Origin: Lutibacter flavus
GTDB taxonomy: Bacteria > Bacteroidota > Bacteroidia > Flavobacteriales > Flavobacteriaceae
Assembly (NCBI GenBank): GCA_945903795.1
Contig: CAMDPE010000008.1
Coordinates: forward strand, 1-33,523
Direction: 5' to 3'
Length of the DNA: 33,523 bases
Shown: in pieces, positions 3,080-19,414 of the stretch
Layout: each line of letters begins with the position of its first letter
How positions within the stretch are numbered: the stretch's first letter is position 1
Made by a program: the position numbers and the translations under genes
The notes under the pieces: model-generated
The model's input: the letters and a program-made list of their open reading frames with translations, nothing else
What the model was told of the DNA's origin: nothing
Databases searched by the model: none

Positions 3080-4447
3080 ATGAAAAATACTATTTCTGAA
3101 AGAATTTCTGATTTTTTAAAAAATTATCCACCTTTTAACTTAATTTCTACCGCAACTTTGTTGGAAGTTTCACAAAATGTGGAAATTCAGTATTTTGAAA
3201 AAGATCAAATTATTTTCAGTCAGAATGACAATCCGCACGAATATTTTTACATAATTTATCAGGGATCCGTAAGACTTTACCGATTTGTTGAAAACGAAAA
3301 ACATATTCTTGACATTTGTGATGAAGGCGATTTGTTTGGTTTAAGGCCGCTCATTATGAACGAGAATTATGTAATGGGCGCTTCGGCAAATGAAGAAACT
3401 ATTTTATACGGAATTCCTATTGCATTGTTTCATGACATAATTTTAAACTATCCAAAAGTTAGCCAGTTTTTAATTGCAAGTTTTGCCACAAATACCCGTG
3501 AACCATTTTCTGAAAAGCATAAAGGCAAATTATTTGCCAATATTTCCGCCATTCAAAAAATTGAACATGGCTTTTCCGAAATACAATCTGCAAATTATAA
3601 TAAAAACCCAATTACTTGTTCTCCAGACACATCGGTGCAAACTGCTTGTCTCATTATGACAAAAAACATAATTAATTCTATCATCATTACAGACAATAAT
3701 ATGCCAATTGGGATCATAACCGATAAAGACATCAAAACAAAAATAGGTACCGGACTCTATAAAATCAACAATAAAGTGAGTGATATTATGACCAGCCCTG
3801 TTGTCACTTTTCAACAAAACATTTCAGTTGCCGAAGCACAAATAAAGCTATTGAAACATAAAGTTTCCCATTTATGCATTACCAAAGATGGCACTAATAA
3901 GTCTGAAATAGTTGGTGTTTTAACGCAACAAGACTTAATATTAACTCAGGGTAATAGTCCATCATTGCTTATTAAGGAAATTAAAAATGCCAAAGATGCC
4001 GAAACGCTGAAACATATTAGAACAAAAGCATCTGATTTAACCAAAGGCTATCTTGAGCAGGAAATCCCAATTTATTTTGTGACAAAAGTTATCTCTGAAA
4101 TAAATACAGCCATCACAAAAAAAACGATCCGATTGTCTGTTTTGGAAATCGGTAAAGAACCTCCTGTAAAATTTTCGTGGCTTGCTTTGGGAAGCCAAGG
4201 AAGAAAGGAGCAGTTATTAATGACAGACCAAGACAATGCGTTGGTCTTTGAAAATGTTGCTCCCGCAGATTATAACAGGGTAAAAAATTACTTTTTAGAA
4301 TTGGCAGAAAAAGTAACTCAAAAACTAAATATTGTTGGTTTTGATTATTGCCCGGCCAATATTATGGCAAGTAATCAAAAATGGTGCATCTCTTTGGAAG
4401 AATGGGAACAACAATTTGAGGAATGGATAACCGATCCAATCCCGTAA
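3080..4447 (+). CDS. cNMP-binding/CBS/DUF294 nucleotidyltransferase-like protein, copy 1, cut short by an in-frame stop
   Basis: The first 455 codons of a gene whose full-length partner lies at 5729-7648. In order it holds a cyclic-nucleotide-binding domain (about 1-130), two CBS motifs (about 175-290) and a DUF294 nucleotidyltransferase domain related to GlnD, with its motif GSQGRKEQ and the acidic pair in TDQDNA intact. Codon 456, at 4445-4447, is TAA. In the other copy the aligned codon is Asp, with the same spacing on both sides (PIP-stop-KILL against PTEDAIMM). The same frame stays open to 5002, so one base change, for example GAA to TAA, explains the break. The product would lack the C-terminal DUF294_C region of about 180 residues. 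It may be a recent pseudogene, a readthrough gene or a sequence error. Confidence 0.7.
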   Translation: MKNTISERISDFLKNYPPFNLISTATLLEVSQNVEIQYFEKDQIIFSQNDNPHEYFYIIYQGSVRLYRFVENEKHILDICDEGDLFGLRPLIMNENYVMGASANEETILYGIPIALFHDIILNYPKVSQFLIASFATNTREPFSEKHKGKLFANISAIQKIEHGFSEIQSANYNKNPITCSPDTSVQTACLIMTKNIINSIIITDNNMPIGIITDKDIKTKIGTGLYKINNKVSDIMTSPVVTFQQNISVAEAQIKLLKHKVSHLCITKDGTNKSEIVGVLTQQDLILTQGNSPSLLIKEIKNAKDAETLKHIRTKASDLTKGYLEQEIPIYFVTKVISEINTAITKKTIRLSVLEIGKEPPVKFSWLALGSQGRKEQLLMTDQDNALVFENVAPADYNRVKNYFLELAEKVTQKLNIVGFDYCPANIMASNQKWCISLEEWEQQFEEWITDPIP

Positions 4448-5002
4448 AAAATACTGTTAAGCATCATCTTTTTTGATTTTGAGTTGGTTTATGGTGATGA
4501 AACACTTTACACAAGAATGTCTGAAAGCGTTTTTAAAACTATTGAAAAAAACCAGATATTTTTAAGTTTTTTAGGCAAGGTAACTTTAGACAATCCGCCT
4601 CCTTTAGGGTTTTTTAAACAGTTTTTGGTTGAGCAGGATGGCGAAAACAAAGACAGTTTTGATATCAAAAGCAGGGCAATCAGACCTTTAGTGGATGCCG
4701 CCAGAATTTTATCATTACATCATAACTTAAGGGTGAACAACACCATTGCACGTTATGAAAAACTGATGGAAATTGAACCACAAAACAGGGATTTGTTTGA
4801 ATCTTGCGCCAATGCGTTTAAAATTTTATTACAATTTAGAACTTCTCAAGGCTTGGCCAATAATGACAATGGTAAATTTGTTGACATCAACAGCCTAAAT
4901 AAGGCCGACAGATTGAAATTAAAAAGTTGTTTTAAACCGATAAAAAATGTGCAGGAAGCGATAAAATTGCGTTTTAGAACGTCTCAAATTCCACAAATAT
5001 GA
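4448..5002 (+). pseudogene. C-terminal part of copy 1 of the cNMP/CBS/DUF294 gene, after the in-frame stop
   Basis: This stretch continues the frame of the preceding gene with no further stop or shift for 184 codons. It aligns along its length with residues 457-639 of the second copy, for example FFDFELVYG with FFDYDLVYG, NPPPLGFFKQFLVE with NPPPIGFFRQFLVE, and LKSCFKPI with LKGCFKPI. It is the DUF294_C domain. A separate product could only start from weak codons such as the TTG at 4484 or a downstream ATG, inside the conserved domain, so an independent gene is unlikely. Its stop codon overlaps the exonuclease start by four bases (ATGA). This coupling would normally carry ribosomes into the exonuclease gene and may be lost through the upstream nonsense codon. 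Confidence 0.65.
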
Positions 5003-5667
5003 TCAGGTTTTTCAAAAAGAAGCAAACACCGAAATATTGGGATGATCACATTTATAAGGTGCGAAACAGCAAGAAATATGCAAATTTTGAAAACATCCGA
5101 TTTGTGGCGCTAGATACCGAAACTACTGGGTTTGATTATGAAAATGACAGAATTCTTTGCATTGGGGCAGTCGCCATCAAAAATAATAAAATATTAGTTT
5201 CAGATTCCATAGAAATCTACGTAAAACAAGATGTTTTCAATAAAGAAACTGTAAAAATTCACGGCATCAGAAAAGATGGAAATGAGACTAAATTCAGTGA
5301 AGAAGAGGCCATCATTAAATTTATTGACTATTTGGACGATGCTGTTATTGTGGCGCATCATACAGCTTTCGACATAAATATGATCAATATGGCATTAAAA
5401 CGTTTAAAAATTGGCCCAATAGAATCTAAACAACTAGACACCAATTACATCCACAAAAAAATTGCAAAAACAGATACCTATAAAAAAATCTTCAGTCTGG
5501 AAGAATTGTGCGAAATTTATAATGTAAAAATGCACGATCGGCATACTGCTTTGGGTGATGCATTAATTACTGCTTATTTATTTCTTAAACAAACAGCCAA
5601 ATACAAAAAAAACAACGCATTAAACTTGCTCGATTTAATAAATACCAACTACAATCTTATCAAATAA
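4999..5667 (+). CDS. DEDDh 3'-5' exonuclease (DnaQ-like), copy 1
   Basis: A 222-residue exonuclease of the DnaQ/RNase T superfamily. The acidic metal-binding residues are in place: ALDTETTGFD (Exo I), AHHTAFDINM (Exo II) and the Exo III motif HDRHTALGDA with the DEDDh histidine. Residues 1-35 are a basic leader before the fold. There is no polymerase or helicase domain, so it is not a complete Pol III epsilon gene replacement. The ATG overlaps the stop of the previous gene by four bases, a sign of translational coupling to the cNMP/CBS/nucleotidyltransferase protein. The same pairing recurs at 7648. Substrate is unknown: DNA or RNA ends, or a nucleotide-type modification, are all possible. 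Confidence 0.88.
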   Translation: MIRFFKKKQTPKYWDDHIYKVRNSKKYANFENIRFVALDTETTGFDYENDRILCIGAVAIKNNKILVSDSIEIYVKQDVFNKETVKIHGIRKDGNETKFSEEEAIIKFIDYLDDAVIVAHHTAFDINMINMALKRLKIGPIESKQLDTNYIHKKIAKTDTYKKIFSLEELCEIYNVKMHDRHTALGDALITAYLFLKQTAKYKKNNALNLLDLINTNYNLIK

Positions 5668-5696
5668 TAACGCTTTTATAAACCCATAAAATTTTG

Positions 5697-5704
5697 TAAC
5701 TTTA
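5697..5704 (+). promoter_or_regulatory. Possible -7 box ahead of the second nucleotidyltransferase gene
   Basis: TAACTTTA is one base off the TAnnTTTG consensus and lies 25 bases before the ATG at 5729. The 61-base gap is the only sizeable spacer inside the duplicated module, so a separate start for copy 2 is reasonable. Confidence 0.25.
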
Positions 5705-5728
5705 AAGATTAACACTGTTACTGTTTTT

Positions 5729-7648
5729 ATGAAAAATACCATTGCTGAACGAATTTACGATTTCCTTAAAAACTTCCCTCCTTTTGATGTTTTAGAGAAA
5801 GATCAGCTCTTTAAAATTGCCTCAAATGTGAAGGTAACTTATATTGAAAAAGACAATTTTGTTTTTAAACAGGATGAAAATCCGCACGAATATTTTTATG
5901 TGGTAAAAGATGGTGCAATTGGTTTGTACAGAAGCATGGATCATGAACAAATTTTGGTTGATATTTGTGATGAAGGAGATATTTTTGGACTTAGACCATT
6001 GATTCAAAATGATTTGTACCTAATGAGTGCCAAAGCAAATGAAGAATCTATTTTGTATGCTGTTTCGGTAGAAATACTGAAAGAAATTATTGAAACCAAC
6101 GACAAAGTAAAAAAATTTTTAATTGCGAGTTTCTCTTCAAACATTAAAACACCTTATGCAAAAGGAACAAATGGGCAACTCTTTGCAAATATAGAAATGC
6201 TGCAAACTTCGAATACCAGTTTTATGGAGATTCAAAGTGCAGAATTCAGCAAGAAACCGATAACCACCTTAAAAACTTCCACCATAAAAGAAGCGGCTCA
6301 AATAATGAGCGAAAAGCGTGTAGGTTCAATACTAATTGTGGAAAACAGAAATCCAATTGGCATAATAACTGATAAAGACTTGCGCTCAAAAATTGCTACA
6401 GGTTTGGTCTCTATAGACGAAAGCGTCACAGCAATTATGTCCTCACCGGTAAAAACTTTTAAGCAAAAAATTACGGTGGCTGAAGCACAAATTGCCATGA
6501 TAAAAAATAAAATTACGCATTTGTGCATTACCAAAGACGGCACAAATAAAACAGAATTAATTGGGGTCATGTCTGAACATGACATTGTGGTTTTACACGG
6601 AAACAATCCATCATTACTCATAAAAAAAGCATATAGGGCAAAAGATGTAAATGCCCTGAAATTTATACGAGAAAAAGCATCTGATTTACTCCAAGGATAT
6701 ATTGAACAAGATATTCCAATCACATTTATCTCAAAAATTATTTCTGAAATAAATGAAGCCATCACCATAAAAACCATTGAACTTTCTTTAGAAGAAATGG
6801 ACAAAAAGCCACCTGTTAAATTTGGCTGGATTGCTTTGGGAAGCCAAGGAAGAAAAGAACAATTGCTCATGACAGATCAAGACAATGCGCTCGTTTTTGA
6901 GGATGTATCATTAGAAAAATACCAGCCAACAAAACAATATTTTTTGCAACTTTCAAAAAAAATTACCGAAAAACTAAATGTTATAGGTTTTGAATATTGC
7001 CCAGCAGATATGATGGCAAACAACCCAAAATGGTGTTTATCTTTAACTGAATGGAAAAACCAGTTTGATACTTGGATAAAATCACCTACAGAAGATGCCA
7101 TTATGATGTGCACCATATTTTTTGACTATGACTTGGTTTATGGAGAAAAAAAGTTGGTGAATGCAATGTCCGACAGTATTTATGAATCTATAAAATCTTT
7201 TGAAATATTCTTGAATTTTTTGGGAAGAAATGCACTCAGAAATCCTCCGCCCATTGGCTTTTTTAGACAGTTTTTGGTAGAAAATGATGGTGCGCACAAA
7301 GATCAATTCGACTTAAAAAGCAGGGCTTTAATGCCTTTGGTAGATGCCGCCCGGTTGTTAACGCTTTCTCACAATATTAAAGATAAGAACAACACTGTTT
7401 CCAGATATAAAAAATTAATGAAAATTGAACCAAAAAATCAGGATTTATATTTATCATGCATCGATTCCTTTAATATCTTACTGCAATTCAGAACACAACA
7501 AGGTCTGAAAAATAACGATTCAGGAAGATATGTTGACCTTAATAATTTAAATAAATTTGAAAAATTAAAATTAAAAGGATGCTTTAAACCCATTAGAGAT
7601 GTTCAGGAGCTATTGAATATTAGGTATAATTTAGCCCAAATGATGTGA
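5729..7648 (+). CDS. cNMP-binding/CBS/DUF294 nucleotidyltransferase-like protein, copy 2 (intact)
   Basis: A 639-residue soluble protein. Residues 1-130 form a cyclic-nucleotide-binding domain (for example DEGDIFGLRPL). Residues 175-290 hold two CBS motifs (GIITDKDLRS, and the second ending GVMSEHDIV). Residues 365-460 form a DUF294 nucleotidyltransferase core with GSQGRKEQ at 371-378 and Asp383/Asp385 in TDQDNA. The rest is DUF294_C. The architecture suggests a GlnD-like nucleotidyltransferase controlled by cyclic or adenine nucleotides; the target is not known. From memory, genes of this type often sit beside acetate symporter genes in other bacteria, and this one converges on such a locus. 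It ends in TGATG, overlapping the exonuclease start. It is a diverged tandem paralogue of the gene at 3080. Confidence 0.88.
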   Translation: MKNTIAERIYDFLKNFPPFDVLEKDQLFKIASNVKVTYIEKDNFVFKQDENPHEYFYVVKDGAIGLYRSMDHEQILVDICDEGDIFGLRPLIQNDLYLMSAKANEESILYAVSVEILKEIIETNDKVKKFLIASFSSNIKTPYAKGTNGQLFANIEMLQTSNTSFMEIQSAEFSKKPITTLKTSTIKEAAQIMSEKRVGSILIVENRNPIGIITDKDLRSKIATGLVSIDESVTAIMSSPVKTFKQKITVAEAQIAMIKNKITHLCITKDGTNKTELIGVMSEHDIVVLHGNNPSLLIKKAYRAKDVNALKFIREKASDLLQGYIEQDIPITFISKIISEINEAITIKTIELSLEEMDKKPPVKFGWIALGSQGRKEQLLMTDQDNALVFEDVSLEKYQPTKQYFLQLSKKITEKLNVIGFEYCPADMMANNPKWCLSLTEWKNQFDTWIKSPTEDAIMMCTIFFDYDLVYGEKKLVNAMSDSIYESIKSFEIFLNFLGRNALRNPPPIGFFRQFLVENDGAHKDQFDLKSRALMPLVDAARLLTLSHNIKDKNNTVSRYKKLMKIEPKNQDLYLSCIDSFNILLQFRTQQGLKNNDSGRYVDLNNLNKFEKLKLKGCFKPIRDVQELLNIRYNLAQMM

Positions 7649-8310
7649 TGATTTCTTGGTTCAAACATAATAATTATCCGGAATTTTGGAAGCAATATTC
7701 AAAAGAATTCAAACAAAAGCAGCCAAAAAATATTGAAAATACACGATTTGTAGTTTTTGATACAGAAACTACTGGTTTGGATATTGCCAATGACAGAATA
7801 TTATCCATTGGCGCCATTGGTATTTATAACAATATTATTGATGTTTATGATGGTTTTGAAATCTATTTAAAACAAGATGCTTTTAAAGCCGAAACGGTAG
7901 AAATTCATGGAATCTTAAAAGAAGGTAAACTAACTAAAATTAGCGAAGCTGAAGCAATGGAAAATTTTATTGCTTATTTGGGAAACTCCGTTTTGGTGGC
8001 GCACCATACTGCTTTTGACATTGAAATGATTAATGCCGCCCTAAAAAGATTAAAACTGCCTAAACTAAAAAACAAAACCATTGATACTGGTATTTTATAT
8101 AAAAAACTGGAAGGTAAAAAAGATGCTCATTTTAATTTAGATGTGTTGTGCAAAGAATTCAACATCCCAAAACACGACAGACATACTGCAGCTGGAGATG
8201 CTTTTATCACCGCTTTGCTTTTTCTTAAAATTATTTCAAAATTGAAGAAAGAGCGCAACCTGCATTATTCTGATTTGTTTAGGGTTTCTGGCAAAGAAGG
8301 ATTAATGTAA
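7648..8310 (+). CDS. DEDDh 3'-5' exonuclease (DnaQ-like), copy 2
   Basis: A 220-residue paralogue of the exonuclease at 4999, with the same three motifs: FDTETTGLD, AHHTAFDIEM and HDRHTAAGDA. I chose the ATG at 7648, which overlaps the preceding stop as TGATG. A GTG one codon earlier is possible, but the first copy starts at the equivalent methionine (MIRFF against MISWF). The catalytic residues are kept in both copies, so both look active. A shared bidirectional terminator follows at once, separating this operon from the convergent acyl-CoA synthetase gene. Function beyond exonuclease chemistry is unknown; the strict pairing with the nucleotidyltransferase suggests they act on the same process. 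Confidence 0.88.
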   Translation: MISWFKHNNYPEFWKQYSKEFKQKQPKNIENTRFVVFDTETTGLDIANDRILSIGAIGIYNNIIDVYDGFEIYLKQDAFKAETVEIHGILKEGKLTKISEAEAMENFIAYLGNSVLVAHHTAFDIEMINAALKRLKLPKLKNKTIDTGILYKKLEGKKDAHFNLDVLCKEFNIPKHDRHTAAGDAFITALLFLKIISKLKKERNLHYSDLFRVSGKEGLM

Positions 8311-8363: not shown

Positions 8364-11300
8364 TTATTTAACCAATGATCCTTCCATAATGGCTTCTACA
8401 ACCTCCGGATTTAACAAAGTGGTAATATCACCCATATTTGAGGTTTCATTTTCGGCAATTTTACGTAAAATACGTCTCATAATTTTTCCCGAACGTGTTT
8501 TTGGCAAACCTGGAACGAATTGGATTTTATCCAATTTTGCGATCGGCCCAATGGTACGACCAATTAAATCATTGATTTCTTTTCTTAAAGCATCTGGATT
8601 CTCTGGAATTTCATAAACAATTACATAAGCATACAATGCATTTCCTTTAATATTATGAGGGAATCCAACAATGGCAGACTCAACCACATTATTGTGCTCA
8701 TTAATGATATTTTCAATTGGAGCAGTACCTAAATTATGTCCAGAAACAATGACTACATCATCTACCCTGCCTGTAATTCTATAATTTCCTTCCAAATCCC
8801 TAAAAGCACCATCGCCTGTAAAATATTTCCCAGGGAATGCAGAAAAATAGGTTTCTTTATAGCGTTTGTGATCTCCGTAAATGGTTCTTGCCATGGATGG
8901 CCAAGGATATTTAATGCACAATCTTCCCTCAGATGGATTTGTATTTTGCTCATTTCCTTGTTCATCGACCAAACAAGGTTGCACTCCTGGCATTGGCCGA
9001 GTTGCAAATGTTGGTTTTGCAGGTGTAACGCCTGCCAATGGAGAAATCATAATACTTCCTGTTTCTGTTTGCCACCAAGTGTCAACAATTGGTGATTTTT
9101 GTTTGCCAATTTTTTCATCGTACCAGTGCCAAGCTTCTTCATTAATTGGTTCCCCAACAGTTCCCAAAACTTTTATGGAACTTAAATCATTTCTTTGGGT
9201 CATTTCATTTCCCTGTGCCGCCAATGCCCTAATAGCCGTTGGCGCAGTATAAAATTGGTTGACCTTGTACTTTTCAACAATTTGCCAGAAACGACTATAA
9301 TCTGGATACGAAGGAATTCCTTCAAACATTAAGGTAGTTGCTCCAACAGATAATGGACCATAAACTATATAAGAATGACCGGTGATCCAGCCAACATCAG
9401 CAGTACAGAAATATACATCGCCGTGCTCATATTGGAATACATTTTTGAAACTATGCGCTGTTTGCACCATATAACCCGCACAAGTATGCACCATTCCTTT
9501 TGGTTTTCCTGTTGAGCCGGAAGTGTACAATATAAACAACATATCTTCTGCATCCATAACTTCAGCCGGACAATAGGCCTCAGCTTTCGCTAATTCTTCA
9601 TGCCACCAAACATCACGACCTTCTTTCATGACAACTTTACCATTAACTCTATTTAATACAATTGAGGTTTCAATAGTTGGACAAGTTTCAAGGGCTTCAT
9701 CAACAATCACTTTAAAATCAACTGCCTTATTACCTCTAAAAACACCATCTGAAGTCAATAATAATTTACATTCTGCATCGTTAATTCTAGTTGAAAGTGC
9801 CACTGCTGAAAATCCTGCAAATACTACAGAATGTACAGCGCCAATTCGTGCACAAGCCAATAAGGAAATGGCCAATTCCGGCACCATTGGCATATAAATA
9901 CAAACTTTGTCTCCCTTAACTACACCATTTTTTTTAAGCACATTGGCAAATTTACATACTTCAGCGTGCAATTCATTATAGGTTAAAATTCTATTGTCTT
10001 CATCTGGATTATTAGGTTCCCAAATAATGGCTGTATCTTCCCCTCTTTTTTCCAAATGACGATCCAAACAGTTTTCGGTAATATTTAACTTAGCACCTTT
10101 AAACCATTCAAATGTTGGTGTTTCCCAGTTGTACTCCAACACTTTATCCCATTTTTTACGCCAAGTAAAAGTCTCAGCTATTTGAGCCCAATAACCTTCA
10201 GGATCATTCACACTGTGTTGGTAAGATTTATAATATTTTATAAATGAATCTATACGTAAATCGGCAAGAGTTTGTTTTTCTTCTTCAGTGGCATGTTCAA
10301 ATATTCCAACTTTAAAAAGTTTGAATTCGTGGATAATTTCTTCAATAATTTCAGGATCATCAATGGTTGACGGAATCGTATATTCAACACCATCAGCCAT
10401 ATTTCGTAATAATTTACGAAGGATTTTCCCTGAACGCGTTTTTGGCAAACGCTTCACCACCAATACCCTTTTTAATGAGGCAACAGGTCCAATTATTTTT
10501 CTGACATCTTGCACTATATTGTATTCCAACTCAAAGCTAGACACATAATCACCCGATTTTATCACCACCAATGCTAAAGGAACTTGTCCTTTTAACTGAT
10601 CTTCAATACCCAAAACAGCACATTCAGCAACTGACTTATTTGAAGAAACAATTTCTTCCATTTCCGCAGTTGACAATCGGTGACCTGAAACATTGATTAC
10701 ATCATCTACGCGACCTGTAATAAAAACATAACCATCCTCATCAATATAACCACCATCACCAGTAAAATAATATCCTTCAAATCGCTTTAAATAACCTTCC
10801 CTAAATCGTTCTGTATTTCCCCAAATATTAAGCAAATTTCCTGGAGGTAACGGCAATTTAACAGCGACCAATCCTTCTTCATTTGCTTCAAGCTGCTTAC
10901 CGTCATTACTTAAAATTTGAATATCATAACCACTTACCGGTTTTGTTGAGGATCCTGGTTTTATTGGCAATACTTCAACGCCCATCATATTTGAAACCAT
11001 TGGCCAACCAGATTCTGTTTGCCACCAATGATCAATCACCGGAATTTTTAAGTTTTCTTCCAACCAATGCAAGGTCGCTGCATCACAGCGTTCTCCCGCT
11101 AAAAATTGATATTTTAAACAACTTAAATCGTACATTTTCAGCAACTCACCATCAGGATCTTCTTTTTTAATTGCTCTGATTGCCGTAGGAGCGGTAAACA
11201 TTACCTTTACATTATTTTCACTAATAATTCTCCAAAAAGTACTTGCATCTGGTGTTTTTATCGGTTTTCCTTCAAAAATAATAGTGGTGTTTCTGTTTAT

Positions 11301-12188
11301 AAGTGGCCCGTAAACAATATAACTGTGGCCAACAACCCATCCAACATCAGATGCTGCCCAAAAAGTATCGCCTTCTTCAACTCCATAAATATTTTTCATC
11401 GAATATTTCAACGCTGTTGCATAACCGCCAGTATCTCTTAAAATACCTTTTGGTTTTCCCGTAGTTCCTGAAGTATATAAAATATATAAAGGATCCGTTG
11501 AATCCATCTCAACACAATCTGCTGGTTCAGAAGTTTTTACTAATTTTTTATAACTTACATAGGTTTCCGTTTTAGGATTTATTGCTCCCAAATTACGTTG
11601 GTAAACAATAATCTTTTCAACTTTATGAGTAGCTTTTTCCACTGCTTCATCCACCAAAGGTTTGTAGGCAATCAATCGGTCAACTTCCATTCCTGAAGTT
11701 GCAGTAATTATCACTTTTGGTTTACAGTCATCAATCCTAATCGCCAATTCATGAGGTGCAAAGCCACCAAAAACAACGGAATGAATGGCACCAATTCTAG
11801 CGCAAGCCAACATACTAAATGCTGCATGAGGAATCATTGGCATATAAATAATAACGGTATCGCCTTTTTTTACACCCAAATCACGTAATCCGCCAGCCAA
11901 GCGAGAAACCTGTCTTTTAACATCATTAAAAGAATAGTTTATTCGCTGTTGCGTTACGGGCGAATCATAAACAATGGCGGTTTGCTCTCCAAAGCCAGCT
12001 TCAACGTGTTTATCAACCGCCAAATAGCAAATGTTTAATTTCCCTCCTTCAAACCAACGATCAAAACCATTTTCATCTTTAGATAATATTGTAGTTGGCT
12101 TTTTAAACCACTTTATATTATTGGCTTGTTCTCCCCAAAACGCTTCCGGGTTTTCAATACTGTTTTTGTAATGTTTTTGATAACTCAT
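8364..12188 (-). CDS. acs: Fused propionyl-CoA synthetase-like / acetyl-CoA synthetase (PrpE-AcsA), 1274 aa
   Basis: Two complete AMP-forming acyl-CoA synthetases in one frame; each activates a short-chain fatty acid with ATP and CoA. Residues 1-620 resemble PrpE (ILRDTGGYA, KPGSSTKPVSGYD). Residues 650-1274 resemble AcsA (TVGEPINEEAW, WPSMARTIYGD). Each half has a P-loop (YTSGTTGKPKG at 238-248, YTSGSTGKPKG at 888-898), a WWQTE motif, FTGDG, and the regulatory C-terminal lysine in LPKTRSGK (Lys588 and Lys1235). The acyl-pocket residue before GE is Ala364 in the first half and Val1011 in the second (Val386 in Salmonella Acs), which fits propionate and acetate respectively. No methionine occurs between residues 597 and 766, so the second half has no start codon of its own. 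Single synthetases have about 630-650 residues. It is the last gene of the minus-strand locus, two bases after the 72-aa gene. Confidence 0.92.
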   Translation of the reverse strand: MSYQKHYKNSIENPEAFWGEQANNIKWFKKPTTILSKDENGFDRWFEGGKLNICYLAVDKHVEAGFGEQTAIVYDSPVTQQRINYSFNDVKRQVSRLAGGLRDLGVKKGDTVIIYMPMIPHAAFSMLACARIGAIHSVVFGGFAPHELAIRIDDCKPKVIITATSGMEVDRLIAYKPLVDEAVEKATHKVEKIIVYQRNLGAINPKTETYVSYKKLVKTSEPADCVEMDSTDPLYILYTSGTTGKPKGILRDTGGYATALKYSMKNIYGVEEGDTFWAASDVGWVVGHSYIVYGPLINRNTTIIFEGKPIKTPDASTFWRIISENNVKVMFTAPTAIRAIKKEDPDGELLKMYDLSCLKYQFLAGERCDAATLHWLEENLKIPVIDHWWQTESGWPMVSNMMGVEVLPIKPGSSTKPVSGYDIQILSNDGKQLEANEEGLVAVKLPLPPGNLLNIWGNTERFREGYLKRFEGYYFTGDGGYIDEDGYVFITGRVDDVINVSGHRLSTAEMEEIVSSNKSVAECAVLGIEDQLKGQVPLALVVIKSGDYVSSFELEYNIVQDVRKIIGPVASLKRVLVVKRLPKTRSGKILRKLLRNMADGVEYTIPSTIDDPEIIEEIIHEFKLFKVGIFEHATEEEKQTLADLRIDSFIKYYKSYQHSVNDPEGYWAQIAETFTWRKKWDKVLEYNWETPTFEWFKGAKLNITENCLDRHLEKRGEDTAIIWEPNNPDEDNRILTYNELHAEVCKFANVLKKNGVVKGDKVCIYMPMVPELAISLLACARIGAVHSVVFAGFSAVALSTRINDAECKLLLTSDGVFRGNKAVDFKVIVDEALETCPTIETSIVLNRVNGKVVMKEGRDVWWHEELAKAEAYCPAEVMDAEDMLFILYTSGSTGKPKGMVHTCAGYMVQTAHSFKNVFQYEHGDVYFCTADVGWITGHSYIVYGPLSVGATTLMFEGIPSYPDYSRFWQIVEKYKVNQFYTAPTAIRALAAQGNEMTQRNDLSSIKVLGTVGEPINEEAWHWYDEKIGKQKSPIVDTWWQTETGSIMISPLAGVTPAKPTFATRPMPGVQPCLVDEQGNEQNTNPSEGRLCIKYPWPSMARTIYGDHKRYKETYFSAFPGKYFTGDGAFRDLEGNYRITGRVDDVVIVSGHNLGTAPIENIINEHNNVVESAIVGFPHNIKGNALYAYVIVYEIPENPDALRKEINDLIGRTIGPIAKLDKIQFVPGLPKTRSGKIMRRILRKIAENETSNMGDITTLLNPEVVEAIMEGSLVK

Positions 12189-12190
12189 AA

Positions 12191-12409
12191 TTATTTGTTT
12201 TTATTATTAAATAATCCAAACCAAACTGGATTTAAAAATTTTATTTTTATCAATGCCCATAGCACTAATAAGGTAAACAGTCCCATAAAGAGGGAACTTA
12301 ATGCACTTATTTGAAACAATGATTCTATATATATTCTGCCAAATATGGTAATGATTACATAAATAGTGATCACTATATCCGAAGAGCTATTTCCCAATTT
12401 ATAATTCAT
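12191..12409 (-). CDS. Small membrane protein, 72 aa, unknown function
   Basis: A short protein with two predicted membrane spans (about residues 11-30 and 38-57) and a basic C-terminal tail. I do not recognise a family. It lies 8 bases after the response regulator and 2 bases before the fused synthetase on the same strand, so it is clearly part of the operon. The tight spacing and the plausible membrane pattern favour a real gene over a chance frame. It might help the sensor kinase or the symporter, but nothing in the sequence shows this. Confidence 0.65.
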   Translation of the reverse strand: MNYKLGNSSSDIVITIYVIITIFGRIYIESLFQISALSSLFMGLFTLLVLWALIKIKFLNPVWFGLFNNKNK

Positions 12410-12417
12410 ATTTTATA

Positions 12418-12786
12418 TTATTTTTTATTTAAAAGTTCTTTTACTTCTTTTACCAAATTTTTTATGGCAAAAGGTTTTGAAATGTACTTATCAGCACCTA
12501 ATTGCAGCCCTAATTCTATGTCTGATGCTTTATTTTTTGCTGAAAGAAATATAACTTTAATTTTATTTAAAGTTTCGCTATTTTTTAAATAATTAAGCAC
12601 CTGATAGCCATCAACATTTGGCATCATAATATCCAATAATATAATATCCGGAATTGAATTTTCAACTATTTCAATGGCTTCTGCTCCATCACGGGCTATG
12701 TACACTTGAAAATCTTCTTTCTTAAAAATGTATTCCAGTGACATAACAATGTTAGGCTCATCATCAACTATTAATATCTTTTTCAT
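12418..12786 (-). CDS. Receiver-only response regulator
   Basis: A 122-residue CheY-type receiver domain with no output domain. The acidic pair Asp8-Asp9, the phosphoacceptor Asp52 (in LLDIMMP), Ser82 and Lys104 (in SKPF) are all present. The gene starts one base after the stop of the SSS-type kinase gene, so the two form a cognate pair. Known partners of such kinases (CrbR, CbrB) carry DNA-binding domains; this one does not. It must act through protein contacts or pass its phosphate on. It cannot itself be the transcription activator of the locus in the usual way. Confidence 0.92.
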   Translation of the reverse strand: MKKILIVDDEPNIVMSLEYIFKKEDFQVYIARDGAEAIEIVENSIPDIILLDIMMPNVDGYQVLNYLKNSETLNKIKVIFLSAKNKASDIELGLQLGADKYISKPFAIKNLVKEVKELLNKK

Positions 12787-12787
12787 T

Positions 12788-15418
12788 TTATGGTCTATTT
12801 AATGGTAACGTAAAAGTCAATCTGGCCCCTTGAGAACTTCTGTTTTCTGCCCAAATTTTACCATTGTGGCTTTCAATAATTTGTTTACTGATTGCCAAAC
12901 CAAGTCCGCTCCCAATTGGTTTTAACAAGGTTTGATTTTTAGATTGATAAAATTTATTGAAAATGGCTATTAATTCATCATTTTCAATTCCTTTCCCATT
13001 GTCTTCAACAGATATTTCAACTTTATTCTGATTTACATAGGTTGAAATTTTAACCTCTCCACTTTCTTCATTTGAAAATTTAAAGGCATTCGACAATAAA
13101 TTGACAATTACTTGTTGAATCCTGTCCTCATCATAAACAACCTCCACGTCATTAATTTCATTCAAATTCATTTTAATTCCTTTATTAATGGCCAATTGCC
13201 TAAAAGGATCAATTGATTTTAAAATGGTATTTTTAATCGAATGCTCATTTAAATCCAATTTTTCTTTTCCCGTAGCCAATTTTTCCAAGTCTAAAATGTT
13301 ATTGATTAACCTGCTCACTCTTTCACTTTCACTTACTATACTCGTTAAAAATTTCTTTTTTGTGGGATTGTCAATTTCATCGTCAGCCAATAATATTTCT
13401 GAAAGGGCTCTTATTGAAGTGATTGGCGTTTTTAATTCATGCGCCACTGTGTCGAGAAATTCATCTTTTTGTTTGTCGCGTTCTTTTAATTCGATGTTGG
13501 ATTCTTTTGCTTTTTGGGTTTCATCCAGAATATTCAATACTTCTGCTAAACTTATTTCTTCTTCTTTTACTACGGAAGCGATTAAAATTCTTGCTGAAGC
13601 GCTTCCGATACTTCCGGTTAACAATTTTTCGGAAAAATTTACCAAACGAGCATCTGCAACTTGCGTTTTTTTATCGATATCATACTTCATATAAAACAAA
13701 TTCAACGCTCTTTCAGTTCTGTTTTCGCCCAAAAAACGGGTTAAAACTTTTCTGATATCACGCACATAAGCTTCTCCTTTCCACACATAAGCACCTTCTT
13801 GCAAAGCTGCATATTTGGTGCTGTCTACAAACATTTCGGCAAAATTTCGTTCCCGGTAACTTCCCAATTTATTAACAGAAACCAACGAATAAATAATAGC
13901 ATTAAAGAGCAGGCTCCAAAAAAATGCGTGGGTTACCGGCTCAAATAATTGCAATCCGAACAATTCATAAGGCTTTAAAATACTGATGCCGAACAATCCT
14001 TCATCAACAAAAGTAGTGACAATAGATTGTGAGTCGATAATTAGCGGAATTAATAAGGTATACACCGTAATTAAAAAACCTATGATGATGCCGTATTTTG
14101 CAGCTTTTGAAGATCCTCTCCTCCAAAACAAACCTCCAAAAAAGGACGGAGCCAATTGGGCAATAACCACAAATGAAATCAATCCGATTGAAACCAAAGG
14201 CCTGTCCAACGTAAAGCTTTTATAGAAAAAATAAGCGATGATAATCAACAAAAAAATTGAAATGCGTCGAATATTTTTAATAGATTCCGTGTTTTCTTCC
14301 GATTCTGATTTGCTAAACCGCTTCAAAAATCCGTAAGGAATAATTAAATTATTGCTAAGCATGGTAGCCAATGCCAACGAAGAAATAACCACCATGGAAA
14401 TTGCTGCCGAAAATCCGCCCAAAAACACCAACAGTGCCAAAAACTCATTATTGTTGTTTAACGGCAACAACAATGTAAATAAATCGGCATCAACTTGTTG
14501 ATTTTGAAAGATGATGTTTCCACCCCAAGCAATGAATATCACAAAAACATTAAAAAGCAATAAATACAGTGGAAACAGCCAAATTACTTTCTGCAAATAT
14601 TTTTCCCGTTCATTTTCAATAACGGTCACCTGAAATTGTCTTGGCAATAACATAATGGCTATCATAGATAATAAACTCAGCAAAAACCAATTAAATCCGC
14701 CATTTAAACCATCAATGGTTTGCTGGGTTTTAAAATTGGGCAAAACCGATGCCTGATTGTAAATATCGGTTGGGCCATTAAATAAATAAAAGGTTACATA
14801 AAAACCAATGACAAGAAAAAATACCAGTTTAATAACAGATTCCAGTGCGATTGCAGTGATGATTCCTTTGTGACGCTCGGATGCATCCGTATGCTGGGTA
14901 CCAAAAAAAGCGGCAAAAATTGCCAATAAAATTGCAATGTAAAAGGTGGTATCGTCTAAAATGGAAATGGCAGAAATATGATGATTTGTGATTACGTTAA
15001 AAGTTTCGGAAATTGCTTTTAACTGTAATGATATATAAGGTACAATCGCCAAAACGCAAACCAAGGTCACTAAGGCACCTAAAAAACGATCGTTGCCATA
15101 GCGCAGTGAAATGAAATCGGCCAAAGTTGAAATTTTATTTCCTTTGGAAATTCTGATAATTTTACGCATTAAAATTACCCAGGTTGGTATAATGATAATG
15201 GGACCCAAATAAATGGTTAAAAATTTTAATCCTGATGTTGCTGCCAAACCAACGCTGCCATAGTAAGTCCATGCTGTGCAATAAACCGCCAATGAAAGGG
15301 TATAAATATAAGGGTTATTAACCCACCTGCTTTTTGAATTTTTTTCAGCCCAATAAGCCACATAAAAAATGACGGCCAAATAAACCAATATTACTGCTAT
15401 CACCAAAAAACTACTCAT
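12788..15418 (-). CDS. SSS-STAC sensor histidine kinase (CrbS/CbrA-like)
   Basis: An 876-residue inner-membrane kinase. Residues 1-515 form a sodium:solute-symporter domain of about 13 spans. Residues 540-625 match the STAC linker (YVRDIRKVLTRFLGENRTERA). Then follow a dimerisation domain with His660 in VAHELKTP, the N-box around Asn773 and Asn777, DNGKG at 806-810 and GSGLGLA at 836-842. I see no PAS domain. Kinases of this build, CrbS in Vibrio and CbrA in Pseudomonas, control acetate or carbon-source use; sensing by the transporter-like domain is the general view. The start overlaps the 64-aa gene by eight bases, and the response regulator follows after one base. Its position between an acetate-type symporter and the synthetase supports a role in acetate/propionate sensing. 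Confidence 0.92.
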   Translation of the reverse strand: MSSFLVIAVILVYLAVIFYVAYWAEKNSKSRWVNNPYIYTLSLAVYCTAWTYYGSVGLAATSGLKFLTIYLGPIIIIPTWVILMRKIIRISKGNKISTLADFISLRYGNDRFLGALVTLVCVLAIVPYISLQLKAISETFNVITNHHISAISILDDTTFYIAILLAIFAAFFGTQHTDASERHKGIITAIALESVIKLVFFLVIGFYVTFYLFNGPTDIYNQASVLPNFKTQQTIDGLNGGFNWFLLSLLSMIAIMLLPRQFQVTVIENEREKYLQKVIWLFPLYLLLFNVFVIFIAWGGNIIFQNQQVDADLFTLLLPLNNNNEFLALLVFLGGFSAAISMVVISSLALATMLSNNLIIPYGFLKRFSKSESEENTESIKNIRRISIFLLIIIAYFFYKSFTLDRPLVSIGLISFVVIAQLAPSFFGGLFWRRGSSKAAKYGIIIGFLITVYTLLIPLIIDSQSIVTTFVDEGLFGISILKPYELFGLQLFEPVTHAFFWSLLFNAIIYSLVSVNKLGSYRERNFAEMFVDSTKYAALQEGAYVWKGEAYVRDIRKVLTRFLGENRTERALNLFYMKYDIDKKTQVADARLVNFSEKLLTGSIGSASARILIASVVKEEEISLAEVLNILDETQKAKESNIELKERDKQKDEFLDTVAHELKTPITSIRALSEILLADDEIDNPTKKKFLTSIVSESERVSRLINNILDLEKLATGKEKLDLNEHSIKNTILKSIDPFRQLAINKGIKMNLNEINDVEVVYDEDRIQQVIVNLLSNAFKFSNEESGEVKISTYVNQNKVEISVEDNGKGIENDELIAIFNKFYQSKNQTLLKPIGSGLGLAISKQIIESHNGKIWAENRSSQGARLTFTLPLNRP

Positions 15419-15669: not shown

Positions 15670-17394
15670 TTAATGTGCACCTTGTGCTGCTTCCACTCCA
15701 GACGGAATTCTAATATGTTCAACAATTTCTTGAACATGTTGTGGCGGCGCTGGCGTTAATCTTGAAACAACTACAGAAACAATAAAGTTTACTGCCATCG
15801 CTACTGTTCCAAAACCTTCAGGAGAGATTCCTCCTTTTCCAAAATTAAACCACCAATCTGGTGCAAGACCAGCCACAGCATCTTTTCCTCCGTCAAAAAT
15901 TCCAAATTTGAATTTTAACATATAGTATAACATTAAACATAAGCCTATAATCATACCTGTAATCGCACCTTCTTTGTTCATACGCTTGTCAAAAATACCA
16001 AGCAAAATTGCCGGGAAGAAAGATGCTGCGGCCAAACCGAAAGCAAGTGCGACAACGGCGGCGACAAATCCAGGAGGATTTATTCCAAAATAACCTGCAA
16101 TAAGAACTGCAACACCAGCACTTAATCGAGCGGCTAAAAGTTCGCCTTTTTCAGAAATATTTGGATTTATGATTTTCTTGATTAAGTCGTGAGAAATTGA
16201 AGAAGCGATTACCAATAACAATCCAGCTGCTGTAGATAAAGCTGCTGCCAATCCACCTGCTCCAACCAATGCAACTACCCAGTTAGGCAAATTCGCAATT
16301 TCAGGGTTGGCAAGTACCATAATATCATTGTCAATTGTTAATTCGTTGATTTCTTTATCGGCAACATATTGAACAATGCCATCAGCATTTTTATCTTCAA
16401 ATTTCAACAATCCTGTTTTTTCCCAATTGCCAAACCATTGTGGCAATTCAGCATATTTTGAATTACTTACAGTTTCAATTAAATTGGTTCGTGCAAAAAC
16501 GGCCACTGCAGGCACTGTTGTATATAAAATAGCGATAAAAAACAAGGCCCAACCTGCTGATGCTCTTGCATCTTTTACTTTTGGCACAGTAAAGAAACGA
16601 ACAATAACGTGAGGTAATCCAGCGGTACCTACCATAAGGGCAAATGTGATTGCAAATACATCAATCATCGATTTGGTACCAGAAGTATATTCGGTGAATC
16701 CGAGCTCTCGCGACAATCCATCCAATTTATCCAATAAATATACCCCATCTTCACCTGCAGCTCCAAATCCCAATTGAGGAATAGGGTTACCTGTCATTTG
16801 AAATGATATATATATTGCAGGCACCATAAAAGCGAATATCAATACACAATATTGCGCCACTTGGGTATAAGTAATTCCCTTCATTCCGCCCAATACAGCA
16901 TAAAATAAAACAATTGCCATACCTATATATACACCTGTGTCAATTTCCACTTCCAAGTATCTTGAAAATACAATTCCTACTCCTCTCATCTGACCTGCCA
17001 CATAAGTAAATGAAACAATCAAGGCACAAACTACGGCTACAATTCGCGCAGTATTGGAATAATACCTGTCCCCAATAAAATCAGGCACCGTAAATTTTCC
17101 AAATTTTCTTAAATAAGGCGCCAACAAAAGTGCCAGAAGCACATAGCCGCCGGTCCAGCCCATAATGTAAACGGAGCCATCATATCCGGTAAAAGACACA
17201 ATCCCCGCCAAAGAGATAAATGATGCTGCTGACATCCAGTCGGCAGCGGTAGCCATACCATTCATAATTGGCGAAACACCTCCGCCAGCTACATAAAATT
17301 CTTTAGAAGTTCCTGCCCTGGCCCAAATTGCAATTCCTATATAAAGCGCAAATGAAAGTCCGACAAGTATCCAAGTCCATGCTAATATTCCCAT
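15670..17394 (-). CDS. Cation/acetate symporter, SSS family (VC_2705 type)
   Basis: A 574-residue inner-membrane sodium:solute symporter with about 13 spans. Family-like stretches include FYVAGGGVSP near the N-terminus, AADWMSAASF in the first core helix, and AGGLAAALSTAAGLLL around residue 385. A loop at about 330-345 contains DKNADGIVQY, an EF-hand-like acidic segment that, from memory, is usual in the VC_2705 subgroup. The partner DUF4212 subunit is encoded 25 bases upstream, the diagnostic arrangement for this subgroup. The likely substrate is acetate or another short-chain acid, supported by the fused acyl-CoA synthetase in the same locus. A strong terminator follows. Confidence 0.92.
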   Translation of the reverse strand: MGILAWTWILVGLSFALYIGIAIWARAGTSKEFYVAGGGVSPIMNGMATAADWMSAASFISLAGIVSFTGYDGSVYIMGWTGGYVLLALLLAPYLRKFGKFTVPDFIGDRYYSNTARIVAVVCALIVSFTYVAGQMRGVGIVFSRYLEVEIDTGVYIGMAIVLFYAVLGGMKGITYTQVAQYCVLIFAFMVPAIYISFQMTGNPIPQLGFGAAGEDGVYLLDKLDGLSRELGFTEYTSGTKSMIDVFAITFALMVGTAGLPHVIVRFFTVPKVKDARASAGWALFFIAILYTTVPAVAVFARTNLIETVSNSKYAELPQWFGNWEKTGLLKFEDKNADGIVQYVADKEINELTIDNDIMVLANPEIANLPNWVVALVGAGGLAAALSTAAGLLLVIASSISHDLIKKIINPNISEKGELLAARLSAGVAVLIAGYFGINPPGFVAAVVALAFGLAAASFFPAILLGIFDKRMNKEGAITGMIIGLCLMLYYMLKFKFGIFDGGKDAVAGLAPDWWFNFGKGGISPEGFGTVAMAVNFIVSVVVSRLTPAPPQHVQEIVEHIRIPSGVEAAQGAH

Positions 17395-17685: not shown

Positions 17686-18876
17686 TTAAAAGTTATAAAT
17701 TGCTGTTGTTAATAATCTAAAGTTGCTTACCGGATCAACACCGGTTGTTTTCATGCCACCGTCTGTGTCAATAGATCCATATTGTGCACTGGAAAATTCA
17801 CCTTCAATTCCTATTTTCATTTTTCCTGATTTCCACCCAATTCTTGGCGCTATTCTAAAGGCACTTTCAACACTGTTTCCTAAAAATCCGTTGGTATAGG
17901 TAATTGTTTCCCCAAAACCGCCGTTTTTTGAATAACCACCAAATATTCCCCATTCCATGGTTTCAGAAAAATCAGCATTGAATTCAGTCCAGGCAGAAAA
18001 TGTGTCATTATTTATGTAATCCCCATTTGCAGCTGTTCCAAAACCACTAATTTGCAGGATATCAGACATATTTTGTCCGTAAATGGCTTCTGCTTTCCAA
18101 GTCGCTTTTCCTAATTTTGTTCTAAAATATCCAATAAAAGCAGTACTTGTCACATTATCAACGCCTAAAGCCGGTCTGGCCGATTTAAAATTAACACCAA
18201 AACCTCCCAAAGTATTTGCCACGGAACCCAATTGCAATTGTGCATGTAATTGAGGCATTCCTGATTGACTTACGCTTGCACCTCTGGTTGCAAAATCTCT
18301 TTCGGTAAAAAGAACTCCAATAAATTTAACCTTTCCTTTGGTGGTTAAACGCAATTGAGGATTTCTAGAAAATGGCGCAAATGGAACTCCTGTATTAAAG
18401 GAGTAAACATCTGGAAATACAGATGTCACAAACATAGGATGCCAAAACTGTCCCATTAAAATTTCAATTTTATCATTCGATAATTGTACGAATGCATGTC
18501 TTAATCTAAAACCGTTAACATCATCGAGCCCTGTTCCGGAGTTTCCGAAAAAATCAGCCTCAATAGCACCGGAAGTTTTCATTCCAAAAAAGTCGGGACC
18601 AGTAATACCTGCTCTCAAACGAGATTGGATTGATAAAATGTTAAAATTGGTTTGGTCATTCACATCTTCTCCATTTACCAAACTTTCTGGTTTTGGTAAA
18701 ATCATAAAATGTCCTTCTCTGGAATTGGTGGTTTGTCGCGTATCAAACATATAGTCTGTCTTAACAAAACCATTCCATTTAACACCAAAAGCTGGTGTGG
18801 CATCAGTTGCCTGGCCATAACTGTAGTACGTTAATCCCAAGAGAAGGATTAACAAAATTGAAAGTTGTTTTCTCAT
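17686..18876 (-). CDS. Outer-membrane porin-like protein
   Basis: A 396-residue exported protein. Residues 1-21 form a signal peptide (MRKQLS, a leucine/isoleucine core, then SYGQA). The rest alternates polar and hydrophobic residues as beta-barrel strands do, with many Gly, Asn and aromatic residues, and ends in Phe (TTAIYNF), the usual outer-membrane signature. It is first in the transport unit, 11 bases before DUF4212, so it probably lets short-chain organic acids cross the outer membrane. I cannot assign it to a named porin family with certainty. The 118-base leader upstream contains a TA-repeat stretch but no clear consensus promoter. Confidence 0.8.
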   Translation of the reverse strand: MRKQLSILLILLLGLTYYSYGQATDATPAFGVKWNGFVKTDYMFDTRQTTNSREGHFMILPKPESLVNGEDVNDQTNFNILSIQSRLRAGITGPDFFGMKTSGAIEADFFGNSGTGLDDVNGFRLRHAFVQLSNDKIEILMGQFWHPMFVTSVFPDVYSFNTGVPFAPFSRNPQLRLTTKGKVKFIGVLFTERDFATRGASVSQSGMPQLHAQLQLGSVANTLGGFGVNFKSARPALGVDNVTSTAFIGYFRTKLGKATWKAEAIYGQNMSDILQISGFGTAANGDYINNDTFSAWTEFNADFSETMEWGIFGGYSKNGGFGETITYTNGFLGNSVESAFRIAPRIGWKSGKMKIGIEGEFSSAQYGSIDTDGGMKTTGVDPVSNFRLLTTAIYNF

Positions 18877-18994: not shown

Positions 18995-19414
18995 CTATCC
19001 TTTAAACCTTTCCCAACGAATTAACATAAATTTATCACCCAACTCAGTGACAATAACACCTGCGCCAATCAAATTTTTGTTGGTTGAGAAGTATTTTGCC
19101 AATTCAACAGCATTTAAAATCTTATAAGTAGAGTGATATTCAAAACTATACGGGCGTTTTACATTGTATTTTTTGACCCAATTTATGATACTAACGTGCG
19201 AAATCCCTAAAATGCGTTCAATTTCCCGATAGCTCAAACCCTCCAAATATAGCTGTAAAGCTTTATTAACATAATAGGAATCAATTTGCTTACCAACTTT
19301 ATTTACAGTGAAATAATAGGCGCATTTTTTGCATTTATAGCGCTGTCTGTCTTTAATCACACCACTTTTAACATATTCATCTGAACTACAATTTGGACAA
19401 CAGGTAATTTTCAT
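18995..19414 (-). CDS. Zinc-ribbon and helix-turn-helix protein related to IS1 InsA
   Basis: A 139-residue protein. Residues 1-35 form a zinc ribbon with Cys6, Cys9, Cys28 and Cys31 (CPNC and CKKC). Residues 50-84 form a helix-turn-helix of the type found in IS1-family InsA proteins (YREIERILGISHVSIINWVKKY). The last 50 residues are not transposase-like: there is no DDE catalytic domain, and no second transposase frame or terminal inverted repeats are visible around it. It lies on the same strand as the acetate/propionate locus, 118 bases upstream of the porin gene. I read it as a possible domesticated DNA-binding regulator of that locus. A remnant of an insertion sequence is the alternative. 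Confidence 0.7.
   Translation of the reverse strand: MKITCCPNCSSDEYVKSGVIKDRQRYKCKKCAYYFTVNKVGKQIDSYYVNKALQLYLEGLSYREIERILGISHVSIINWVKKYNVKRPYSFEYHSTYKILNAVELAKYFSTNKNLIGAGVIVTELGDKFMLIRWERFKG

Follow-up and report, generated by a model that had tools for sequence, protein, structure and literature searches.

Synthetases of the Acs (AcsA) and PrpE families are models in domain-alternation enzymology, and bacteria usually produce the acetate-activating and the propionate-activating enzyme as two proteins. Related domains also occur in larger chains, such as the trifunctional propionyl-CoA synthase Pcs, which links an Acs domain with a hydratase domain and a reductase domain from the same pathway, and the non-ribosomal peptide synthetases (NRPS), which have carrier and condensation domains. 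Acs and PrpE are moreover model targets of lysine-acylation control, according to the available part of one paper (PMC8556138). The window analyzed in this study, a stretch of 33,523 nucleotides from Lutibacter flavus (assembly GCA_945903795.1, contig CAMDPE010000008.1, forward strand), contains a gene in which a PrpE-type and an AcsA-type synthetase are fused head to tail into one protein of 1274 residues with two complete sets of catalytic motifs. This is a new architecture made from known parts. The initial annotation of the window knew of no described enzyme with this layout, and among the papers listed in searches of open-access literature none described a PrpE-AcsA fusion, as judged by titles and the openings of abstracts.

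The fused gene is a minus-strand open reading frame (ORF), a strand that the initial annotation had left unnamed, and it runs from an ATG at 12188 down to 8364 without an internal stop. The N half matched the NCBIfam propionate--CoA ligase NF007815 on residues 1-619 (profile positions 2-624 of 629) and the C half the acetate--CoA ligase TIGR02188 on residues 650-1269 (positions 5-628 of 629), the bit score of each profile adding up both halves. ACAS_N, AMP-binding, and AMP-binding_C of Pfam were each matched in two stretches of the protein, and the P-loop, W-TE, TGD, GR-DD, and SGK motifs were found in the N half and the C half alike. Two full-length halves with their catalytic motifs had been claimed from the sequence alone and are borne out by these near-whole-profile matches, as are the lysines at positions 588 (PrpE half) and 1235 (AcsA half). 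Ala364 and Val1011, the residues before the GE motif, also stand where they had been placed; however, our motif survey showed Ala in all 42 separate PrpE and Val in all 102 separate AcsA. Being common to the whole families, the two residues are family marks rather than a peculiarity of the fused protein and are no proof of substrates; for propionyl-CoA formation by the N half, the Ala is only suggestive. Judged by motifs and family, the single polypeptide would combine two short-chain acyl-CoA synthetases of the AMP-forming type, with propionyl-CoA made by the N half and acetyl-CoA by the C half. A profile search of the window's own assembly (94.6% complete, 306 contigs) returned five other PF00501 places, of which the two listed show 24-25% identity, and no second close AcsA or PrpE match. 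The fusion is the only enzyme of these types found in this assembly.

The fusion occurred in 30 of 38 genomes of the genus search, the window's own included. It was whole and uninterrupted in 28 of them and broken by contig ends in two (cut in G016, spread over two contigs in G003), so that the case considered in the initial annotation, a genome that is alone in being fused, does not apply. Conservation across genomes leaves no missed stop or frameshift at the junction, where the frame is unbroken as originally stated. Removal of a stop by a sequencing or assembly error might be suspected in a draft genome of 306 contigs, but it is ruled out by the same open frame in these 28 genomes and in Lutibacter oricola DSM 24956, which leaves it a vanishingly small probability. 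The AcsA half had further been thought unable to start on its own. Indeed, no ATG lies between residues 597 and 766, whereas in-frame GTG codons at residues 660, 683, and 750 and TTG codons at 684, 708, 712, and 740 leave non-ATG initiation formally possible. A fused ORF whose product is split in the cell, either through proteolytic cleavage or because translation also starts at GTG660 or TTG684, could draw on these codons past residue 650; since ATG is missing, GTG660 already falls within the conserved AcsA N-terminus, and the linker shows zero indels across the 17 Lutibacter-type genes compared, we consider such splitting very improbable. In these 17 genes the pooled ratio of nonsynonymous to synonymous substitution rates (dN/dS) was 0.071 for residues 10-600, 0.112 for 601-625, 0.088 for 622-645, and 0.056 for 646-1260.

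None of the 38 genomes carried the fusion plus a second match at E <= 1e-200. Solo AcsA was the only form in six genomes (G012, G007, G017, G431, G018, and G004; loci L026-L030 and L083), and the copy in L083 is split into two ORFs. The four of these six that were placed in the tree grouped with other Flavobacteriaceae and not with the fusions, a pattern that looks like replacement of the fused gene. G014 had no close match and G020 fragments only; in its locus L031 (6110-9436), shortened symporter, kinase, PrpE-half, and AcsA-half pieces follow one another in this order, as if an operon had lost internal parts. PF01642 of the propionate pathway was present in all 38 genomes and separates no group. 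Isocitrate lyase (PF00463) was present in 17, namely 16 of the 30 fused genomes, one of the six with solo AcsA, and none of the other two.

The fused ORF was present in at least five of the 56 loci listed, three of them from Lutibacter, one from a metagenome-assembled genome labelled 'Bacteroidales', and one from Pontibacter litorisediminis; the Lutibacter carriers are L. oricola DSM 24956 and two uncultured assemblies. The label 'Bacteroidales' (L088) looks doubtful, as this gene groups with the Lutibacter-type fusions. Uninterrupted full-length fusions were found in 6 of 395 genomes of the order (E <= 1e-200) and, at E <= 1e-300, in 2 of 395 of the class, 3 of 395 of the phylum, and 8 of 296 of family f5, in samples that overlap, that stay within the phylum, that include the window's own genome in the order, class, and phylum sets, and in which distant fusions would be missed at these cut-offs. 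Long open frames of genus g61 in the order survey turned out to be separate genes. The fusion is rare and probably recurrent.

The strongest result on how the halves relate to each other comes from outside the window, from the related genus g107, in which fused genes were present in five of nine genomes and in two kinds in G814 and G815. Type I comprises four genes (L158-L161, from G410, G812, G814, and G815) and type II three (L162-L164, from G814, G815, and G816), all seven of full length with 1261-1285 residues. The AcsA tree places the two types as sisters (100/99); the fused gene was therefore duplicated. In type I the AcsA half is intact, whereas the PrpE half has Glu, Ser, or Asn in place of the A10 lysine, Gly or Ala in place of the motif III Asp, and Ser or Asn in place of the A8 Arg, together with a changed P-loop. 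In type II the PrpE half is intact, and in the AcsA half the P-loop TSGSTG became SSESSG, VSGH became VSDH, the second Trp of WW became Phe or Tyr, and SGK became NGK. Replacement of the motif III Asp abolished the activity of Methanothermobacter Acs1, according to the available part of the report (PMC3438747), which makes the type I PrpE halves very probably catalytically dead. No comparable catalytic loss was seen among the 42 separate PrpE and 102 separate AcsA, all fetched for similarity, in which variation was confined to the Trp, the first residue of motif III, and one A8 position; the 34 fused rows of the same survey represent 33 genes, as L075 and L158 are one gene. A wider check without identity cut covered 171 distinct separate ORFs, one of them below 50% (L002, a distant acyl-CoA synthetase). 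Its crude patterns flagged six further ORFs (L030, L148, two in L120, L133, and L137), of which L030 and L148 run off the locus end, while those of L120 and L133 are extended far upstream, which may shift the P-loop beyond the fixed range searched. Judged by dN/dS, the degenerate g107 halves are under strong purifying selection, with values of 0.069 (L159/L160), 0.079 (L158/L160), and 0.056 (L163/L164) at partly saturated synonymous sites; the intact halves of the same pairs gave 0.026, 0.051, and 0.053.

Reciprocal loss with full-length retention suggests mutual dependence of the halves. We lean slightly towards a bifunctional enzyme that is kept because its halves act as a unit, each supporting the other. 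The chain would probably be a pseudo-dimer within one molecule, with each half stabilising or controlling its partner, a step that draws on the g107 copies, in which catalytically degenerate halves have stayed full length and under strong purifying selection. PMC11255334 reports a dimer for B. subtilis AcsA on elution and a monomeric or dimeric state for most bacterial Acs, which makes such an intramolecular pair plausible at most. A stronger version is offered more tentatively and would be an obligate two-lobed enzyme whose halves require each other for folding, stability, or control; after duplication in g107, one bifunctional enzyme would have become two enzymes with one working and one degenerate half each, and the degenerate halves, which occupy opposite positions in the two, would persist as pseudo-synthetases with a regulatory or structural role.

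Several observations weigh against mutual support. Both halves are intact in the window-type proteins, to which the dependence is carried over from another genus, and six genomes of the window's genus manage without the fusion. The type II AcsA halves still have the Lys of A10, the Asp of motif III, and the Arg of A8, and their function may have changed instead of being lost; their Trp-to-Phe change is also present in 2 of the 102 separate AcsA, and the control set of separate genes consists of sequences chosen for their similarity. A dN/dS value was available from only three of seven g107 pairs, the others being saturated at synonymous sites, and in both types the degenerate halves evolve faster when pooled, with pN/pS of 0.215 versus 0.117 for intact halves in type I and 0.150 versus 0.122 in type II. 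Moreover, an AlphaFold2 model from 22 rows gave no confident arrangement of the halves and no interface. It covers residues 75-1274, as the whole chain was over the length limit, and reached a mean predicted local distance difference test score (pLDDT) of 80.5 and a predicted template modelling score (pTM) of 0.56. In the fold search each modelled part matched Acs-type structures, with Salmonella enterica Acs as the best and PrpE (5gxd) at rank 37. The residues retained in type II, together with the strong purifying selection, would also suit degenerate halves that are alive, either with a new substrate or in ligand binding only, a reading that is silent on structural dependence. However, three residues (lysine, motif III Asp, and Arg) are missing together from the type I PrpE halves, and Asp replacements inactivated the Acs in the part of PMC3438747 cited above; we regard living halves as rather unlikely.

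Separate genes in relatives point to the origin of the fusion. Separate prpE and acsA shared one locus in 53 places (G084 counted twice), in 52 of them on the same strand, and all 52 same-strand pairs are ordered prpE-acsA with gaps of -4 to 243 bp. The two genes are in the same frame in 44 of these 52 pairs (gaps of 3-243 bp), a set that is biased toward the same frame as the search joins in-frame pairs. Loss of the stop in a prpE-acsA operon would be the simplest route to the fusion, and the relatives suggest that this would have been an acetate/propionate-uptake operon under a CrbS-like kinase.

The number of fusion events was addressed with trees of the two halves. Separate rows with at least 50% identity and at least 450 residues were kept and identical or contained rows dropped, which reduced PrpE from 80 to 67 and AcsA from 145 to 131. 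Near-identical Lutibacter-type rows (L010-L014, L016-L018) and cut copies (L001, L005) were left out throughout, as were L067 (G410) in the first PrpE tree and rows of 560 residues or fewer in the first AcsA tree. Later trees of both halves also went without the duplicates or near-copies L008, L009, L019, L046, L047, and L075, the window row representing L008, and used hand-picked separate rows (30 AcsA, 22 PrpE); the type I N halves of g107 were omitted from the later PrpE trees.

In the tree of AcsA halves (54 rows), lineage A comprised the Lutibacter type, G052, G048, and g107 (95/93), lineage B comprised g23 and g307 (100/96), and lineage C was P. litorisediminis, next to members of Pontibacter whose two genes are separate. 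One origin for all fusions was rejected with the AcsA halves by the approximately unbiased (AU) test (A+B+C, p 6e-7) and with the PrpE halves (p 1.8e-42, the 16 fused rows of the first PrpE tree). A and B as one clade were rejected with AcsA halves (p 9e-7). PrpE halves set lineage C clearly apart and left A+B unrejected with fuller sampling (p 0.357), after a p of 0.031 in an earlier tree with A lacking g107 and B lacking g307; the separateness of A and B thus rests on the AcsA half. A clade of the Lutibacter type and g107 is starred in the AcsA tree (95/93), and in the PrpE tree it was not recovered yet unrejected (p 0.624). The PrpE tree rejected clades of the Lutibacter type with g107 and g307 (p 0.00016) and of g107 with g307 (p 0.0018). 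A foreign origin of the N half in the G410 fusion was considered and then dropped in view of the AcsA tree and a search of its own genus, g107. The label 'Streptomyces griseus' of L130 looks doubtful, as its AcsA falls among Bacteroidota in the tree. With three fusion lineages given by the AcsA halves and only two insisted on by the PrpE halves, at least two and probably three fusion events would be needed, and, as far as counts of changes go, fission of an older fusion may have taken the place of repeated fusion.

The linkers are unlike between these lineages, the five lineage-B genes having their own common linker. This variation, the in-frame spacing in the biased set of separate pairs, and the lack of a confident interface in the model would fit a plain operon fusion by stop loss, with independent halves and equal enzyme amounts as the sole benefit. 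The initial annotation had suggested that the fusion could fix the ratio of the two activities or bring both under joint acetylation control. The fixed ratio is a live rival, yet we find it doubtful as a full account, as it leaves unexplained the full-length degenerate g107 halves with dN/dS of about 0.06-0.08. These halves argue for physical dependence, a point absent from that annotation, the interpretation of which is partly supported overall.

The coordinates of the fused gene and its neighbours are given in Table 1. Upstream of the fusion lie the receiver, the histidine kinase, the symporter, and the outer-membrane-type protein, and downstream the DUF294 and DnaQ-like genes.

Table 1. Position and evidence of the fused gene, its parts, and adjoining genes in the window.
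Feature	Position	Strand	Evidence
Fused PrpE-AcsA gene, 1274 aa	8364..12188	-	ORF, NCBIfam and Pfam matches, orthologues
PrpE-type half, residues 1-619	10332..12188	-	NF007815/TIGR02316 stretch 1-619; motifs intact
Linker between halves, about residues 620-649	10242..10331	-	Indel-free in 17 Lutibacter-type genes
AcsA-type half, residues 650-1269	8382..10241	-	TIGR02188 stretch 650-1269; motifs intact
Small hydrophobic ORF, 72 aa, between receiver gene and fusion	12191..12409	-	ORF comparison
Response regulator receiver	12418..12786	-	Pfam Response_reg 106.5 bits
Sensor histidine kinase, solute-symporter-like N-terminal part (CrbS-like)	12788..15418	-	HisKA, HATPase_c
SSS-family symporter, ActP-like	15670..17394	-	Pfam SSF 185.4 bits
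Outer-membrane-type protein adjoining symporter, porin by appearance	17686..18876	-	No Pfam match
DUF294 nucleotidyltransferase (CBS, cNMP-binding) and DnaQ-like exonuclease	5729..8310	+	Pfam; convergent with fusion

Separate prpE and acsA of relatives are flanked by some or all of the same neighbours (e.g., G049, G424, G402, G348, and G147), and adjacent but separate genes stand beside a symporter-like sensor kinase. The receiver adjoins fused or tandem synthetase genes in many fetched relatives, and its Pfam scan gave no output-domain match. The SSF match of the kinase (21.9 bits) lies just under the cut-off of 22.8. The substrate of the ActP-like symporter would be read from its gene context. 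A 72%-identical relative of the outer-membrane-type protein adjoins acsA in L028, and a pair related to the DUF294 and DnaQ-like genes adjoins separate prpE-acsA in L022, L080, and L082. The small hydrophobic ORF also occurs in L012, L014, L015, and L016, and in a divergent version in L021; its carriers are some genomes of the genus as well as G048. No similar ORF was seen in L032, L086, L087, L088, L089, L020, L073, L169, L090, L033, or L084, and L009 is unreadable at this site (Ns). The g107 genes lack window-type neighbours wherever the fetched stretch was long enough.

The plus strand carries two neighbouring copies of the DUF294 and DnaQ-like module (3080-8310). The first DUF294 gene (3080-5002) is interrupted by an in-frame TAA at 4445-4447, either a genuine stop or a sequencing error, into ORFs of 455 and 172 residues, and its relative is a single ORF of 638 residues in L087 and L089. 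At 18995-19414 (minus strand), a protein of 139 residues has cysteine pairs and a helix-turn-helix (HTH)-like part (Pfam Terminase_5/HTH matches), and relatives with 57-88% identity lie close to the symporter, kinase, or synthetase genes of 13 further fetched loci. It resembles the first protein of IS1-like elements and is possibly a domesticated regulator. An ORF of 771 residues at 31062-33377 (minus strand) shows, by eye, a P-loop-like GGMGKTSFGK and a repeat-like C-terminal part.

A natural fusion with reciprocal catalytic loss in its duplicates offers a direct test of the influence that neighbouring synthetase subunits have on each other and presents a case of recurrent operon-to-fusion evolution; naming the whole chain by one activity would hide the second. 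Compared to known enzymes, the N half resembles PrpE (TIGR02316/NF007815) in being full length with all motifs, with 63-70% identity to separate prpE of relatives, and differs in lacking its own stop, AcsA continuing in frame. The C half is likewise full length with all motifs of AcsA (TIGR02188; S. enterica Acs 2P20 and 1PG4), with 50-51% identity to the S. enterica chains in the fold search, and differs in that it has no ATG start of its own and is preceded in frame by PrpE. Pcs (PDB 6eqo, 1850 residues) is similarly a giant chain with an Acs-type domain, whereas Pfam found Acs-type domains only and no enoyl-CoA hydratase or reductase domain in the fused protein. NRPS with several adenylation domains share the presence of more than one AMP-binding domain per chain, but the fused protein has no carrier or condensation domain by Pfam. 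The gene neighbourhood resembles that of CrbS/CrbR-controlled acs in Vibrio and Pseudomonas, where a symporter-like histidine kinase and a receiver likewise stand beside acs in the available parts of two papers (PMC5436829, PMC5715377); it differs in the receiver, which is without an output-domain match, and in the neighbouring target gene, which is the fusion.

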